Of a DNA stretch of 60,245 nucleotides, positions 392 to 43,895 are shown piece after piece. Every line of letters starts with the position of its first letter. Position 1 is the first letter of the stretch. A program made the translations under genes and the position numbers. The notes under the pieces were generated by a model. It was not told where the DNA came from. It made no database searches and saw only the letters and a list, made by a program, of their open reading frames with translations. The stretch is from an uncultured Bacteroidales bacterium (lineage in GTDB: Bacteria; Bacteroidota; Bacteroidia; Bacteroidales; Muribaculaceae). The stretch lies in NCBI GenBank assembly GCA_902782465.1, contig CACZNH010000018.1, positions 1 to 60,245 of the forward strand, written 5' to 3'.

Positions 392-582
392 ATATTAGGA
401 CCAGCTGCGCCCATCATCGATGAGCTATTATTCGCGAATGAATTATCATTCTTTCGTAAAATTCGTCTTATTCGGCTAATTCGCATTAAGAAAACCTTCA
501 GGGTCAACTGCTATACCATTCACAAAAATATGCCTGTAGAATAGGGCGACTTTTTGCAAAAAAATAAATTTTGCCAGTAGGT

Positions 583-657
583 AAAGATGGGCGGCACCTC
601 AACAATCCAAGAAAAACAAGTTTTTTCTTGGCGTTGTATTCGGCTTGCACTATCTTT
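583..657 (+). repeat. Structured intergenic element, copy 1 (at the nadE promoter)
   Basis: An outer stem AAAGAT (583-588) / ATCTTT (652-657) encloses the block GGCGGCACCTCA, an inner hairpin (CCAAGAAAAA at 607-616 with TTTTTCTTGG at 622-631, extended by ACAA/TTGT), and the block ATTCGGCTTGCAC. The same two blocks around unrelated but self-complementary stems recur near 18264, 36126 and 43715, and partly near 27893. In this copy the 3' outer arm contains the -7 box of the nadE promoter. Confidence 0.6.
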
Positions 658-658
658 G
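628..658 (+). promoter_or_regulatory. Bacteroidota-type promoter of nadE
   Basis: TTG at 628-630, a 20-nt spacer, then TATCTTTG at 651-658, matching the phylum consensus TTG-N19/20-TAnnTTTG. Predicted start is near 664, giving a leader of about 25 nt. The -33 element sits in the inner hairpin of the structured repeat at 583-657. Confidence 0.65.
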
Positions 659-690
659 CAGGTTAAACGAATTGAAAACGAATTAAGGAT

Positions 691-18247: not shown

Positions 18248-18263
18248 CCGTGCTTTCGCACGG
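18248..18263. repeat. Short hairpin next to structured element copy 2
   Basis: CCGTGC-TTTC-GCACGG, a perfect 6-bp stem abutting the 18264-18327 element. No U-run follows, so it is not a clear terminator. Confidence 0.4.
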
Positions 18264-18327
18264 GAAAGCTTGTGCAAACTGAAGGCAAACGAGCTTGCTC
18301 GATTTGCTGAAGTGCCGCCAAGCTTCG
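18264..18327 (-). repeat. Structured intergenic element, copy 2
   Basis: On the minus strand: outer stem AAGCTT / AAGCTT (a palindromic pair at 18320-18325 and 18266-18271), the block GGCGGCACTTCAG, an inner hairpin AAATCGAGC-AA-GCTCGTTT, and the block CCTTCAGTTTGCAC. Stems differ completely from copies 1, 3 and 5, while the two blocks are kept. This copy lies upstream of the promoter at 18166-18195, in the orientation of the leucine-rich-repeat gene. Confidence 0.6.
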
Positions 18328-18399
18328 GGAAATTAAACAAATTATTAAATTAAAATTAATATTATATGTATAATAATAAAAATTTTATAATTAGAAAAA

Positions 18400-20654: not shown

Positions 20655-20781
20655 ATCTTTTAGTTGTAAGTTTTGAGTTTTGAGTTTTAAGTTGTAAGTT
20701 TTAAGTAAGATTACTATCGCCTTCAGGCATTCAACTGTCAACTCCTAACTTCTAACTCCTAACTCCTAACTCCTAACTAAA
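20655..20781. repeat. Heptad-rich spacer with conserved core, copy 2
   Basis: AAGTTTT/GAGTTTT-type heptads, the core AGATTACTATCGCCTTCAGG, then AACTCCT/AACTTCT heptads running up to the lptE stop. The core is almost the same as in the 57785-57843 spacer (GATTACTATCGCCTT). It fills the gap between two genes of one operon, so it would be transcribed. Confidence 0.7.
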
Positions 20782-21297
20782 TTACCAGTCTCCCAGGGTC
20801 GCGTTGAAAATCAGGTCGCTCAGGTCCTTGCAAATCTGGTTGCACAACTCGTCCTGCACATCCACCAGCAGTTCGCTGCTGGAAAAGTCGCGATAGGCAC
20901 TGAAGGACAAGTCCTTGGACAGATTCTGGTTCTTGTTGTTGATATACCTCACCTTTACCGTGATGGTCAGGCGCGTCTGGCTGGCATAGGCATCCTCGCC
21001 GACGGCCTGGGGCGTCAGGCTATAGTTGGTGATTTCGCCCTCCATGCGCAGGTCAGCGTTGCCACCATCGATGACGCGCAGACGCGTCTGCTGGGCAATC
21101 ATGTCGGTCATGCGGTTCTCGAACATCGACTGCAGCGGCGGATAGACCAGCGCGGCACGGATGGGGAACTCGCCGAAGGAGATGGTCTTATAGACACTGT
21201 AGTCGATGGACGCGCCATTCAGCGTGTAACGGGGCACGCAGGCCTGCCACCCGATGGTGGCGACCGCGAGCACTAATATGACAAATAGCCGTTTCAC
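20782..21297 (-). CDS. lptE: LptE-like LPS-assembly lipoprotein
   Basis: 171 residues. Signal peptide MKRLFVILVLAVATIGWQAC with a lipoprotein-type cysteine at about residue 20; the lipobox WQAC is loose but acceptable in Bacteroidota. The mature part matches LptE-type proteins (GEFPIRAALVYPPLQSMFENRMTD region; a secondary structure of two helices and a sheet). LptE plugs the LptD barrel that delivers lipopolysaccharide to the outer leaflet. Its start overlaps the stop of the sigma-54 activator by 4 nt, indicating translational coupling. Confidence 0.85.
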   Translation of the reverse strand: MKRLFVILVLAVATIGWQACVPRYTLNGASIDYSVYKTISFGEFPIRAALVYPPLQSMFENRMTDMIAQQTRLRVIDGGNADLRMEGEITNYSLTPQAVGEDAYASQTRLTITVKVRYINNKNQNLSKDLSFSAYRDFSSSELLVDVQDELCNQICKDLSDLIFNATLGDW

Positions 21298-25613: not shown

Positions 25614-27884
25614 TTAGTTGTTTGAGAGATAGGGGGCGGTGACGGAGGCTGCGCTGTCGAGCATGTTGCGGGGTGTGCCCTGGAAGACGATGGTGCCGCC
25701 CAGGTCACCGGCGCCAGGGCCGAGTTCGATGACGTAGTCGGCGGCCTTGATGACGTCGGTGTTGTGTTCGATGACATAGACCGTGTTGCCCATGTCCACC
25801 ATCTGCTCGAACAGGTCGATGAGGTGGCGCACGTCCTTGAGGTGCAGGCCGTCGGTGGGTTCGTCGATGACGAAAATGCCACGCTGACCGCCCATTTCCA
25901 GGGGCATGGTGTATTGCTTGAGGCAGGACGCCATCTTGAGGCGTTGCAGCTCGCCGCCTGACAGGGTACTGAGCGCCTGGTTCAGGTGCAGGTAATGCAG
26001 GCCGACATCCATCATGGGCTTAAGTTTCTCCTCGATAGAAGTGCCCTTGAAGAACTCGCTGGCACGGCGAACGGACAGGTCCATCACCTCGGCGATGTTC
26101 TTGCCGTCGACGGTATATTGCAGTGCCTCGCGGCTGTAGCGCAGGCCGTGGCAAGCCTCGCAGGTGGTCTCGATATTGTCCATAAACGCCATCTCGGCGA
26201 TGACGACGCCCTTGCCACCGCACACGGGGCAGCCGCCCTTGCCGTTGAAGGTGAAATACTGCTCTTTCATCTTGTTGGCTTTGGCAAAGCGTTTGCGGAT
26301 GTCGGGGGCTACGTCCATATAGGTTGCGGGCGTGGAGCGCAGGCTCACGCCGATGTTCTTCTGGCTGATGTAGATGACGTCGCCGTGCTCGCGACGGAAG
26401 CACTCCATCAACGAACTCTTGCCCGAACCCGCCACACCGGCGATAGCGGCAAAGATGCCCATGGGCAGGTCGATGGAAACGTCCTTGAGGTTGTGGAAGT
26501 TGACGTGGCGCAGCGGGAAGGTCTCTTGGAACAGACGTGGCTGGGCCTTGAAGTCACCGCGCTGACTCAGCATCTGTCCCGTGCTGGTGCCGCTGTGCAG
26601 CAGCTCGTTGTAATTGCCCTGGAAGACGATGCGTCCGCCCTCGCTGCCTGGGCCGGGGCCCAGGTCCACGATGTGGTCGGCCAGGCCAATCATCTCGCGG
26701 TGATGCTCGACGAGCAGGACGGTGTTGCCCGCGTCGCGCAGGCGGCGGACGGAGTGCTTCATCTTCTCGATGTCGTGGTCGTGCAGACCCGTGCTGGGCT
26801 CGTCCAGGATGTAGAGGACGTCGGCCAGCGACGAGTTGATGTACTTGGCAATCTTGCAGCGCTGGGCCTCGCCACCCGACAGGGTGCCCACGCCGCGCTC
26901 CAGGCTCAGGTATCCCAGCCCGATTTCCTCGAGTGCCGTCAGGCGGGCGCTGATGGCCTGCTTGATATCGACGGCGAGGGGCGAGGTGAGCGCCTTGACC
27001 CACTCGTTGAGGCGCGTGATGGACATGGCACAGGCGTCGGCGATGTTGATGCCGTCGATTTTGCACGAGAGCACACGGGGGCTCAGGCGCGAGCCGCCGC
27101 AGTCGGGGCACACGCCCATGTTGAGCATCGGGTTGAGCACCGCGGCATGCAGCAGGCCCTCCTCGCTGTTGATGATGCTGCGGTACATGCGCGGAATGAT
27201 GCCCTCGTACTTGGCCGACTTGGGCCAGTTGGCGGGCGGGTTCTTCAGGCGAATCTGCGGACTGTTGAGGAACAGGTCGAGCTCCTCGGGGCTGTAGTCG
27301 CGGATTTTCTTGTCTAGGTCGAACAGGCCGCTGTGGGCGTAGCGAATCCATCGCCAGCCGCCCTTGCCGAAGGCGATGTAGTGGATGGTGTCCTCATCGT
27401 TGAGGCTCTTGTCAAAGTCCACCAGCTTGTGGATGTCCAGCTCACGGATTTCGCCCAGACCCGAGCAGCGCGGACAGCTGCCCTCGGGGTGGTTGAAGCT
27501 GAACGACTCGGCATAGCCCACAAAGGGTTGGCCCACGCGCGAGAAGAGCAAGCGCAGCAGGGCGGCGATGTCGGTATAGGTCGCCACGGTCGAGCGCGAG
27601 TTCTGGGCGGGCTTCTTCTGGTCGATAACGATGGCGATGGGCAGGTTCTCGATGGCATCCACGTGGGGACGGCCATACTTGGGCAAGTATTGCTGCACAA
27701 ACGACGGGAAGGTGTCGTTCAACTCCCGACGTGACTTGGCAGCAATGGTGTCGAGCACCAGCGAACTCTTGCCGGAGCCTGACACGCCCGTGAACACTGT
27801 GATTTGATGCTTGGGGATTTCCAGCGAGACCTCCTTGAGGTTGTTCTCGCGAGCCCCCTTGATGATTATCTTGTCGCCATTCAT
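25614..27884 (-). CDS. UvrA-like ABC ATPase lacking the UvrB-binding insertion
   Basis: 756 residues from the ATG at 27884. Two ABC modules: Walker A GVSGSGKSS (33-41) with signature LSGGEAQR (335-342), and Walker A GVAGSGKSS (483-491) with signature LSGGELQR (641-648). Zinc-type clusters CPRCSGLG, CPDCGGSR and CPVCGGKG...CEACHG are kept. Canonical UvrA is about 940 residues; the shorter length fits the UvrA2/drug-resistance-like class that lacks the UvrB-binding domain, so it may protect against DNA-binding drugs rather than start nucleotide excision repair. The ATG at 27908 lies upstream of the -7 box and is rejected; the true mRNA would have almost no leader. Confidence 0.87.
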   Translation of the reverse strand: MNGDKIIIKGARENNLKEVSLEIPKHQITVFTGVSGSGKSSLVLDTIAAKSRRELNDTFPSFVQQYLPKYGRPHVDAIENLPIAIVIDQKKPAQNSRSTVATYTDIAALLRLLFSRVGQPFVGYAESFSFNHPEGSCPRCSGLGEIRELDIHKLVDFDKSLNDEDTIHYIAFGKGGWRWIRYAHSGLFDLDKKIRDYSPEELDLFLNSPQIRLKNPPANWPKSAKYEGIIPRMYRSIINSEEGLLHAAVLNPMLNMGVCPDCGGSRLSPRVLSCKIDGINIADACAMSITRLNEWVKALTSPLAVDIKQAISARLTALEEIGLGYLSLERGVGTLSGGEAQRCKIAKYINSSLADVLYILDEPSTGLHDHDIEKMKHSVRRLRDAGNTVLLVEHHREMIGLADHIVDLGPGPGSEGGRIVFQGNYNELLHSGTSTGQMLSQRGDFKAQPRLFQETFPLRHVNFHNLKDVSIDLPMGIFAAIAGVAGSGKSSLMECFRREHGDVIYISQKNIGVSLRSTPATYMDVAPDIRKRFAKANKMKEQYFTFNGKGGCPVCGGKGVVIAEMAFMDNIETTCEACHGLRYSREALQYTVDGKNIAEVMDLSVRRASEFFKGTSIEEKLKPMMDVGLHYLHLNQALSTLSGGELQRLKMASCLKQYTMPLEMGGQRGIFVIDEPTDGLHLKDVRHLIDLFEQMVDMGNTVYVIEHNTDVIKAADYVIELGPGAGDLGGTIVFQGTPRNMLDSAASVTAPYLSNN

Positions 27885-27889
27885 GGCTG

Positions 27890-27919
27890 CAAAGGTAGTG
27901 CAAGTCATGAATAGAACAA
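27890..27919 (-). promoter_or_regulatory. Promoter of the UvrA-like gene, giving a near-leaderless mRNA
   Basis: Minus strand: TTG at 27919-27917, an exact 19-nt spacer, TACCTTTG at 27897-27890, then CAGCC and the ATG at 27884. A start 5-7 nt after the box would fall on or next to the A of the ATG. Confidence 0.65.
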
Positions 27920-27960
27920 TAAGAATTTATTCATATTTTATATCATGACGCAGCCTACCT
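27893..27960 (-). repeat. Structured intergenic element, divergent copy 3
   Basis: On the minus strand: outer stem AGGTA (27960-27956) / TACCT (27897-27893), block GGCTGC, inner stem GTCATGA/TCATGAC, block TTGCAC, then the -7 box. The CCTCA and TTCGG parts of the other copies are absent, so membership is less certain. Confidence 0.4.
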
Positions 27961-28049
27961 AAGCCGACCAACGGGAGGCAACGGCAAGACTTTTTTAGCT
28001 ATCAGGCGTTAGCTTTTAGGCATTAGCTATGTTTGTCTAACGGATTATG

Positions 28050-35275: not shown

Positions 35276-36118
35276 ATGAAGAGGAAAGAAACGCCCGCCA
35301 AGCGGGGACAGATGATACTCTACCTGGCGCTGCTCGCCATAGTGGTGGGTTTCATGGTGGCGCTGAGCATGTGCGACAAGCCCGTGGATCAGCCCAGTAC
35401 GAAGCCCAGCGGCGGCGACACGCTGGACATTGCCATCGAGTACTCGCCGGTGACCTATTACACCTATGACGACACGCTGGGCGGCTATAACTATGACCTG
35501 CTGCGCCTGATTTCGCGCAACACGGGGCGCCCGATGAAGTTCCATCCCATGGTGACGCTCGAGAAGGCGCTGGCAGGACTCGAAGACGGCCGCTTTGACG
35601 TGGTGGTGGCACAGTATCCCATGACCGCCGGCGACACGGCCCGCTATGCCTTCACGCAGCCCATCTACATCGACCAGCAGGTGCTCGTGCAGCGCCGCGG
35701 CAGCAACGCCATCCACTCGCAGCTGGACCTGGCGGGTGACACGGTGTGGACGGTCAAGGGGTCACCCATGACACAACGCATCGCCAGCTTGAGCCGCGAA
35801 ATCGGCGACACCATCTATGTCCACGTGGATGAGCTGTACGGCCCCGAGCAGCTGATGATGATGGTGTCGGAAGGCGAAATCCGCTATGCCATCGTGAACC
35901 GTTCCATCGCCCGTGCCATGGCAGCCAAACTGCCAAACCTGGACCGCTCGGTCGCCATCAGCCTGTCACAGTTCCAATCGTGGATTGTGTCTAAAAATCG
36001 CCAAGGCCTGTGCGACAGTTTGAACCTGTGGCACAACCAGGTGAAGCGTGACACGACCGCCTATCTGGAGCTGCAACGTCGCTACTTTGGCGGCACCTTC
36101 CCCACCTTGGCACGATAA
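35276..36118 (+). CDS. Periplasmic solute-binding (family 3/MltF-type) lipoprotein-like protein
   Basis: 280 residues. N-terminal membrane segment (about 12-32) ending ALSMC, which may be a lipoprotein site or an uncleaved anchor. The rest is a two-lobed family 3 solute-binding domain: DIAIEYSPVTYYTYDDTLGGYNYDLL, then GRFDVVVAQYPMTAGDTARYAFTQPIY. No lytic-transglycosylase domain follows, unlike full MltF. No permease or ATPase gene is adjacent, so it may sense rather than import its ligand. It starts 24 nt after the regulator gene; base composition returns to the G+C-rich level here. Confidence 0.75.
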   Translation: MKRKETPAKRGQMILYLALLAIVVGFMVALSMCDKPVDQPSTKPSGGDTLDIAIEYSPVTYYTYDDTLGGYNYDLLRLISRNTGRPMKFHPMVTLEKALAGLEDGRFDVVVAQYPMTAGDTARYAFTQPIYIDQQVLVQRRGSNAIHSQLDLAGDTVWTVKGSPMTQRIASLSREIGDTIYVHVDELYGPEQLMMMVSEGEIRYAIVNRSIARAMAAKLPNLDRSVAISLSQFQSWIVSKNRQGLCDSLNLWHNQVKRDTTAYLELQRRYFGGTFPTLAR

Positions 36119-36125
36119 TTTGATA

Positions 36126-36183
36126 TTATCGGCGGCACCTCAGCCATTGATGCGAGCATCATGGCCTTCGGTTGGCACGATAA
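36126..36183 (+). repeat. Structured intergenic element, copy 4
   Basis: Outer stem TTATCG (36126-36131) / CGATAA (36178-36183), block GGCGGCACCTCAGC, inner hairpin CCATTGATGC-GA-GCATCATGG, block CCTTCGGTTGGCAC. The blocks match copy 2 almost base for base, while both stems have entirely different but complementary sequence. It lies 8 nt after a stop codon and upstream of the co-oriented gene at 36270. Confidence 0.65.
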
Positions 36184-36269
36184 TTGTTGTAATTTTTACT
36201 CCTGGTTGGCTCCTGCCAACATTCAAGTCCAAGGTCTAACATCTATAGTCTAAAAACACCCTATATAAA

Positions 36270-43685: not shown

Positions 43686-43713
43686 CTCACGTCTTCATTG
43701 GGCTTCAATCTGC

Positions 43714-43743
43714 AAAGGTAGTGCAATCCGAACACAATGCCAA
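43714..43743 (-). promoter_or_regulatory. Promoter of the tiny sorting-tail protein gene
   Basis: Minus strand: TTG at 43743-43741, a 19-nt spacer, TACCTTTG at 43721-43714. Leader about 22 nt. It is embedded in structured element copy 5. Confidence 0.62.
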
Positions 43744-43779
43744 ATTTATTTGAGCATTGTTGAGGTGCAGCCTATCCTT
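43715..43779 (-). repeat. Structured intergenic element, copy 5
   Basis: On the minus strand: outer stem AAGGATA / TACCTT (one bulge), block GGCTGCACCTCA, inner stem ACAATGC / GCATTGT extended by AAAT/ATTT, block TTCGGATTGCAC, then the -7 box as 3' arm. Very similar in plan to copy 1. Confidence 0.6.
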
Positions 43780-43895
43780 AGCCATCGGCAAAATTACAAA
43801 CACTCTTGTATATTGACAAGCATTTTGCGCCATTTTTCACTTTATTTAGACTAACAATGAGTCTCAAGGTTTAACCTGACGCAGTTGCAAAACGG

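Follow-up and report, generated by a model that had tools for sequence, protein, structure and literature searches.

Copies of the element in the window

The window, by which the whole analysed stretch of 60,245 nucleotides is meant, contains five copies (c1 to c5) of a short palindromic element, listed with their associated boxes in Table 1. Here, T denotes the box-like motif with which the element ends, and T' the corresponding motif directly 5' of it. All five copies had been reported by a first-pass annotation of this DNA and were located at the positions and on the strands that it gave; a search of the window with the family model described below returns exactly these five, although the matches are partly a matter of construction, since all of them belong to the 16 copies behind the model. 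The conserved blocks of the first-pass annotation hold for four copies, c5 having GGCTGCGTCAT and no TTCRG, and c3 reading TTGGCAC. Moreover, the copies had been described as following a single plan, but they are of two kinds, c1, c4 and c5 with a promoter motif and c2 and c3 with none. In all three promoter-type copies CC stands directly after T'.

Table 1. The element copies in the window and the boxes associated with them
Feature	Position	Strand	Description	Covariance-model match
T' of c1	566..573	+	AAATTTTG, probable altered native -7 box 5' of c1, judged from sequence by analogy with c4	
c1	574..658	+	promoter-type element, begins CC; upstream of the NAD synthase gene (691-2676)	576-664 (+), E 5.5e-18
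-7 box of c1	651-658	+	TATCTTTG, 3' end of the element, from sequence	
c2	18264..18330	-	promoterless A-type element, T = AAGCTTTC (18271-18264)	18258-18333 (-), E 3.4e-22
c5	27890..27978	-	divergent promoter-type element, begins CC, -7 box TACCTTTG (27897-27890); upstream of the UvrA-like gene	27884-27969 (-), E 6.6e-11
T' of c5	27979..27986	-	TGCCGTTG, probable decayed native -7 box 5' of c5, judged from sequence	
T' of c3	36114..36122	+	GATAATTTG, 5' of c3, overlaps the stop codon of the upstream gene	
c3	36123..36186	+	promoterless (B-type) element, T = GATAATTG at 36179-36186	36117-36192 (+), E 8.5e-20
c4	43713..43788	-	promoter-type element, begins CC, ends with -7 box TACCTTTG (43720-43713)	43707-43786 (-), E 1.6e-17
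T' of c4	43789..43796	-	TAATTTTG, native -7 box retained 5' of c4; TTG about 20 bp upstream	

Family model, copy number and covariation

The covariance model was built from 16 aligned copies of the source genome and comprises an outer and an inner stem. At E <= 6e-4 it recognises at least 103 matches in that genome, including the five of the window (114 are listed at E <= 10), which is more than the first-pass annotation had described; as 150 of 1273 candidates were scored, the count of 103 is a lower bound. Moreover, seven contigs of the draft (G000), namely C6, C7, C12, C20, C24, C30 and C40, have c2-like copies at their ends; the genome therefore probably contains more copies than this, and its arrays may be long. 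The element is short, extragenic (with gene boundaries from a simple ORF caller), palindromic and of high copy number.

Within the 16 copies, 83.6% of the paired cells are complementary vs 61.4% after shuffling, and none of 500 shuffles reaches 83.6%. Among these related copies of one genome, both sides have changed in 11 of the 16 stem pairs, and the covariation score is 0.541, compared with 0.162 for shuffled columns and at most 0.166 for slid structures. Since the copies behind the model are related, pairing was retested on 220 distinct copies found by block pattern, with G.T and A.C scored alike. The outer arms pair with their own T at 6.48 of 8 positions vs 5.70 when swapped (maximum 5.89 in 500 swaps, 119 distinct pairs), and the inner stems score 6.61 vs 5.65 (maximum 5.85 in 200 swaps, 65 dissimilar hairpins). 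Furthermore, double changes separate orthologous copies (AAGATA/TATCTT vs AAGGTA/TACCTT; ATTATC/GATAAT vs ATTTTC/GAAAAT). The complementary stems with compensatory changes claimed at first reading are thereby confirmed. The DNA cruciform then offered as one explanation is possible, but superfluous for explaining the element.

Promoter motif and the two kinds of copy

The element is about 60-105 bp long. In the promoter kind, the 5' half consists of CC, about 4-18 variable bases, a left arm complementary to T and the block GGCkGCRyCTC, and the 3' half of a variable inner hairpin, the block CGRCTTGCAC and finally T, which reads TAnnTTTG. Promoters of Bacteroidetes have a -33 TTG or TTTG about 19-21 bp from a -7 TAnnTTTG. 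The -7 consensus is given as TANNTTTGY in PMC12632263. By pattern search, 46 of the 103 own copies carry an intact -7 box, with TTG 19-20 bp upstream in 41 of them and TTTG in 32, the -33 TTG sitting in the 3' arm of the inner hairpin. With TAnnTTTG at its 3' end and TTG 19-20 bp before it, the element therefore seems to bring a promoter, and it appears to supply this in place of that of the host gene. The left arm varies with T (AAGGTA, AAGATA, AAATTA, AAGATT, TTATC); in only 6 of 119 arm pairs does the arm have A opposite the third T of TTTG, so that an antisense -7 box is avoided.

The promoterless kind has AAnnTTT, AAGCTTTC or GATAATTG in place of TAnnTTTG. The inner arm of c2 is common to 20 copies genome-wide, several of them truncated; some c2-like copies have no left half, with varying cut points. 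Several of these copies (L098, L119, L126) lie 3' of an AT-rich palindrome, gggaaattaagcaaatt ... aatttgtttaatttccc, of which the right part only stands beside c2 (18330-18395), and a second hairpin, cccgtgcgaaagcacggttatatt, is found 3' of several. Promoterless copies also occur nested in the inner hairpin of other copies (L051, L066, L080, C35:22322-22517). In tyrS (L051) and C35 the site is the loop TAnATTTG, and the nesting in L066 and L080 is known solely as nested matches on opposite strands.

It had also been noted that all copies point towards the next gene. This is so within the window; genome-wide it applies only to copies with an intact -7 box, of which 30 have the same direction as the next gene, 7 the opposite one and 5 no gene called (n=42), 24 of the 30 lying within 50 bases of it. 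It does not apply to the c2 kind, with 6 same, 12 opposite and 2 without a called gene (n=20), and the remaining copies face the next gene weakly (21, 14 and 6, n=41). These counts come from a simple ORF caller, and from an intact-box pattern slightly unlike that giving the 46.

The stems covary, and the predicted folds of the five window copies are more stable than those of shuffled sequences (z -1.7 to -4.2), both of which speak for a structured RNA or cis-regulatory leader. Such an RNA, another option of the first-pass annotation, is nevertheless very hard to reconcile with the position of the promoter: the -7 box is the 3' end of promoter-kind elements, and the transcript should therefore start outside the element. 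Upstream boxes able to transcribe it are mostly broken in arrays. Moreover, G.T pairs are not commoner than A.C in the inner stems (23 vs 36), no match above the Rfam gathering score occurs in the window, and a permissive Rfam search of six loci gave five weak, chance-like matches (best E 0.026), with microRNA models at the top.

Filled and empty insertion sites in relatives

Orthologous upstream regions of the genus were compared by eye (L-numbers denote loci). Gene names derive from family matches (NAD synthase, UvrA-like, TypA, DnaN, phosphoglycerate kinase, RbfA, AlgH-like and TyrS), those other than NAD synthase and UvrA-like from 60-residue pieces whose matches fall below whole-protein cut-offs. 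The piece of a further gene, of the phosphate-acyltransferase type, matched phosphate butyryltransferase models. The label sppA is our assumption, and a family search of that gene piece gave no match.

The clearest case is c4, which reads as native promoter, then element, then native leader. Where relatives lack the element, this upstream sequence and box, ...aaaatgcttga...TAnnTTTG, continue straight into the leader CAGATTGAAA, the box being TAATTTTG in 6 of 14 relatives with no visible remnant of the element and having TATC or TACC in the others. In the window, aaaatgcttgtcaatatacaagagtgtttgTAATTTTG is joined to CCGATGGCTAAGGATAGG at one end of the element and GATTGCACTACCTTTG to CAGATTGAAGC at the other. 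Likewise, the site of the sppA-labelled gene runs from TAATTTTG into CCTGTTGGCGAAGATAGG and from CACTATCTTTG into TAGGTTA where filled, and from TAATTTTG directly into TAGGTTAG where empty (L332 and L323). For the acyltransferase gene the own site and L336 are filled, and the six other relatives compared have TAnTTTTG followed by GGCATC; at tyrS the own T', TACCTTTG, is that of all 12 relatives compared, and the own T is TAACTTTG. Filled and empty sites also face each other at typA (L268 vs L264), rbfA (L312 vs L304) and, at the same spot, the UvrA-like gene (L174 vs L185). c1 precedes TATCTTTGCAGGTTAAAC; at L145, a locus that lacks the element, the NAD synthase gene comes directly after TATCTTTGCAGGTTAAAG, and leaders of the type TAnnTTTGCARGTTAA occupy this place in relatives without the element. 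In total, the picture is the same for eight further genes (up to 16 relatives), c4 and c3. The insertion point lies immediately 3' of a native TAnnTTTG (T'), so that the element separates this -7 box from the gene, and the new box T in turn takes, by the same alignments, the old distance from the gene. Among the options of the first-pass annotation, it is the mobile palindromic element that these filled and empty orthologous sites support; its interpretation held in part, the promoter inside the element and the target rule having been missed.

Model matches are present in 2 of 27 relatives for NAD synthase (L158, L161), 1 of 29 for the UvrA-like gene, 5 of 15 for typA, 1 of 16 for rbfA, 1 of 7 for the acyltransferase, 1 of 14 for the algH-like gene and 1 of 16 for c4, and in none for dnaN (15), pgk (13), the sppA-labelled gene (14) and tyrS (12). 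Thus, for 11 promoters with an own copy, a copy is recognised (E <= 0.001) in 12 of 178 upstream regions of relatives, some of them short or perhaps non-syntenic. The 166 regions with no recognised copy argue against a regulon, in which the blocks would be transcription-factor sites and the copies promoters of co-regulated genes kept by selection. The direction of the intact-box copies and the constant -7/-33 spacing are in its favour, but the named downstream genes (NAD synthase, TypA, DnaN, phosphoglycerate kinase, RbfA, TyrS) have unrelated core functions, the blocks are present in promoterless copies too and the variable stems are complementary; a regulon is accordingly considered very improbable.

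At four sites T' and T differ (c4 TAAT/TACC, sppA-labelled TAAT/TATC, tyrS TACC/TAAC, acyltransferase TAAT/TATC), and the left arm pairs with the near box T at c4 (with one bulged base), the sppA-labelled gene and the acyltransferase gene. T therefore probably came with the element, nothing being duplicated or lost, and at these four sites the element has inserted 3' of a fixed short motif with no duplication of the target. The UvrA-like L174, typA L268 and rbfA L312 have the same box as T' and as T, so these sites are ambiguous as to the origin of T. At rbfA L312 the arm reads TATC and T reads TACC like the native box, which counts against an element-borne T, and in the array C3:20139/20057 the arms pair crosswise; both cases fit target duplication or recombination better. 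Furthermore, the arm at tyrS fits both boxes poorly, TACC is also the native box of three relatives at the c4 site, and at c3 a run of 15 bases, TTGGCACGATAATTG, is common to both element ends and the empty sites, which exceeds what the rule needs.

Such observations bear on a classical MITE, a palindrome inserted by a trans-acting DDE-type transposase with duplication of an 8-9 bp target, TAnnTTTG(C), whose stems would later be maintained by quasipalindrome correction (template switching). The three sites with identical boxes and the 15 bp shared by the two sides of c3 agree with it, and the double changes between orthologous copies could come from quasipalindrome correction, a mutational process. 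On the other hand, T' is unlike T at the four sites named above and the arm fits T in all of these but tyrS; this origin is therefore regarded as rather unlikely, though deserving consideration.

At the c3 site six relatives have no element, and the other ten carry complete, partial or remnant copies, with as many as three in tandem; the model recognises copies in 7 of the 16. Next to it (36085-36122), the last codons of a solute-binding protein gene, TTTGGCGGCACCTTCCCCACCTTGGCACGATAATTTG, resemble the element minus its hairpin, and relatives with an empty site encode the same protein end. This C-terminus is possibly a fossil copy, or the resemblance is due to chance. Runs of short repeats, tctagaNNatctaga or cctaactcctaact / ctaaagtctaaag, were also seen upstream of several genes in the genus (L173, L304-L318) and in the window at about 20757-20796 and 27985-28025.

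Tandem arrays and decay

In 34 tandem arrays, 9 of 38 internal -7 boxes and 32 of 34 last boxes are intact, the last copy being the 3'-most one irrespective of gene position, and named loci entering the count through a pattern that requires one intact box per locus. Among discordant arrays, 26 have broken internal boxes and an intact last one vs 2 with the reverse, one of these perhaps misread. In 14 arrays that came from outside the pattern scan, 4 of 16 internal and 13 of 14 last boxes are intact. The lesions vary (TACCGTTG, TATCGCTG, one-base deletions). In the source genome, 12 near-identical neighbouring pairs (of 16) differ at 16 of 798 core sites, and in 9 of these 12 the first eight bases of T differ. 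Either outer promoters of an array have been selected to be silent, or the boxes were freed from selection or altered when the array formed; the former is favoured, since the changes fall mainly in the box. At typA, dnaN and c4, decayed copies (L261, L263, L266, L267, L288, L510, L514) seem, by eye, to retain mainly the right, promoter half.

The head-to-tail arrays and junctions such as TACCTTTGCC-TGGC-GGCGAAGGTA recall a site-specific tyrosine recombinase, integron- or Xer-like, for which T', four bases and the arm would form an inverted repeat resembling a core site, with arrays growing after T. However, the spacer is variable rather than conserved, empty targets have only one half site and no linked gene family emerged from general ORF clustering, all of which makes such a recombinase improbable. 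Both this explanation and that of a MITE concern movement alone and overlap with the best explanation, which is set out below.

Proposed mechanism and search for an enzyme

Most probably, the family represents a palindromic mobile element that is non-autonomous and directed at promoters. It inserts directly 3' of the native -7 box T' and probably carries its own box T; its promoter would then be used instead of the native one. A trans-acting enzyme may use the conserved unpaired blocks to recognise the single strand in its folded form, and may find T' and T through their pairing with the left arm, in the manner of the IS200/IS605 and REP guides. For the promoterless kinds (c2, c3) the rule would be the same, their targets being T-like sites outside promoters, including some inside other copies. 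That promoter boxes are targeted may, speculatively, reflect single-stranded DNA in open complexes.

The search for an enzyme concentrated on Y1 transposases. The 33 Y1 loci of the genus hold only 1 copy in 102,525 bases, two Y1 genes of the source genome, read with their flanks, have none, and a Y1-like match occurs in 1 of the 118 listed element loci of named genomes. Y1 genes thus show no linkage to the element, nor does their presence visibly follow that of the copies. Three drafts, G002, G012 and G014, have 7, 23 and 12 copies, which may be old, and no Y1 match at E <= 1e-5; in two others, G004 and G015, there are no copies and 5 and 7 Y1 matches. When the 731 ORFs from the 118 listed named loci were clustered, the commonest family was present in 8 loci and none in more. 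These loci contain 128 paired and 14 lone right blocks; as candidates for an autonomous version, four lone right blocks with a left-type block 136 to 2758 bases upstream were considered and taken as neighbouring copies. In L027, another palindrome, caggggt...gcgaagcgg...acccctg, flanks a Y1 transposase gene (about 1389-1415 and 1976-2010) and probably represents a separate REP-like family.

Comparison with known systems

Members of IS200/IS605 insert 3' of a motif without duplication. Their ends are described in PMC6006769 as a hairpin following a guide that pairs with the left-flanking target motif and the right-end motif, and REPs are said there to work partly by the same principle. The element is similar in having a guide-like arm before a hairpin and in inserting 3' of a motif without duplication; unlike IS200/IS605, it has one hairpin instead of one at each end, its guide pairs at about six positions instead of with a tetranucleotide, it has no linked Y1 enzyme and it carries a promoter motif.

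With REPs and BIMEs it shares the form of a short extragenic palindrome in about 100 copies, with arrays. However, there is no constant GTAG/GTGG (or CGTC) foot, GTAG appearing only when T = TACC, and the arrays are head to tail, whereas REPs in BIMEs alternate according to PMC2817692. Also unlike REP/RAYT, it has no linked enzyme, and its target is a promoter box. RAYT subclass 2.6 of Bacteroidetes is reported to be flanked by 'atypical secondary structures' (PMC6006769). Finally, the MITEs of Porphyromonas gingivalis such as BrickBuilt are likewise short, non-autonomous intergenic repeats of Bacteroidales with promoter activity, predicted in the present case (PMC4596501). BrickBuilt contains 23-nt tandem repeats, terminal inverted repeats and, in a part of its copies, target duplications; the present element differs in its single variable hairpin and in re-supplying the box at the landing site. 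No earlier description of the element was found in the open-access literature, a weak absence as most subscription papers lay outside its scope.

Taxonomic range

A search of other Bacteroidales, which the first-pass annotation had suggested, yields copies throughout much of the genus and scattered ones elsewhere. At E <= 1e-5, 17 of 19 sampled genomes of the genus have copies, source genome included, and none of 12 sampled from other families of the order. In a wider sample of the order, with stricter filters and few candidates scored, copies were found in at least 16 of 295 genomes (again including the source) and 13 of 184 genera, and in none of three other genera of the same family. The exact promoter-kind pattern occurs in at least 118 stretches of named genomes; among the matches listed, the 80 titles are by their taxonomy all of Bacteroidales, with Prevotella, Leyella, Marseilla, Mediterranea, Tannerella, Alistipes, Muribaculaceae and others. 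Cultured species with the pattern include Leyella stercorea DSM 18206 (L375) and Prevotellamassilia timonensis (L365). In 11 loci of other families the core is recognisable and the stems are different. A phage origin was considered, and the exact promoter-type pattern had no match in viral contigs.

Implications

A fuller picture may be put forward tentatively, as possible rather than probable: a single-strand element whose guide arm pairs with the host's promoter box, which lands in melted open promoters, re-supplies the promoter, is kept by the host and with time rewrites core-gene promoters throughout an order of gut bacteria. The usual effect of a mobile element is to disrupt or disturb a promoter; the present one seems to select the -7 box, insert next to it and provide the gene with a new promoter. 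Such re-supply would allow the persistence of about a hundred copies, many in front of core genes. From its copies the course of promoter replacement in Bacteroidales can be read, and the element could explain promoter differences between close strains. Moreover, it offers a test of the coevolution of guide arm and target, and arrays whose inner boxes are broken provide natural experiments in promoter interference. A selfish repeat thus appears to have become one of the means by which core genes are turned on.
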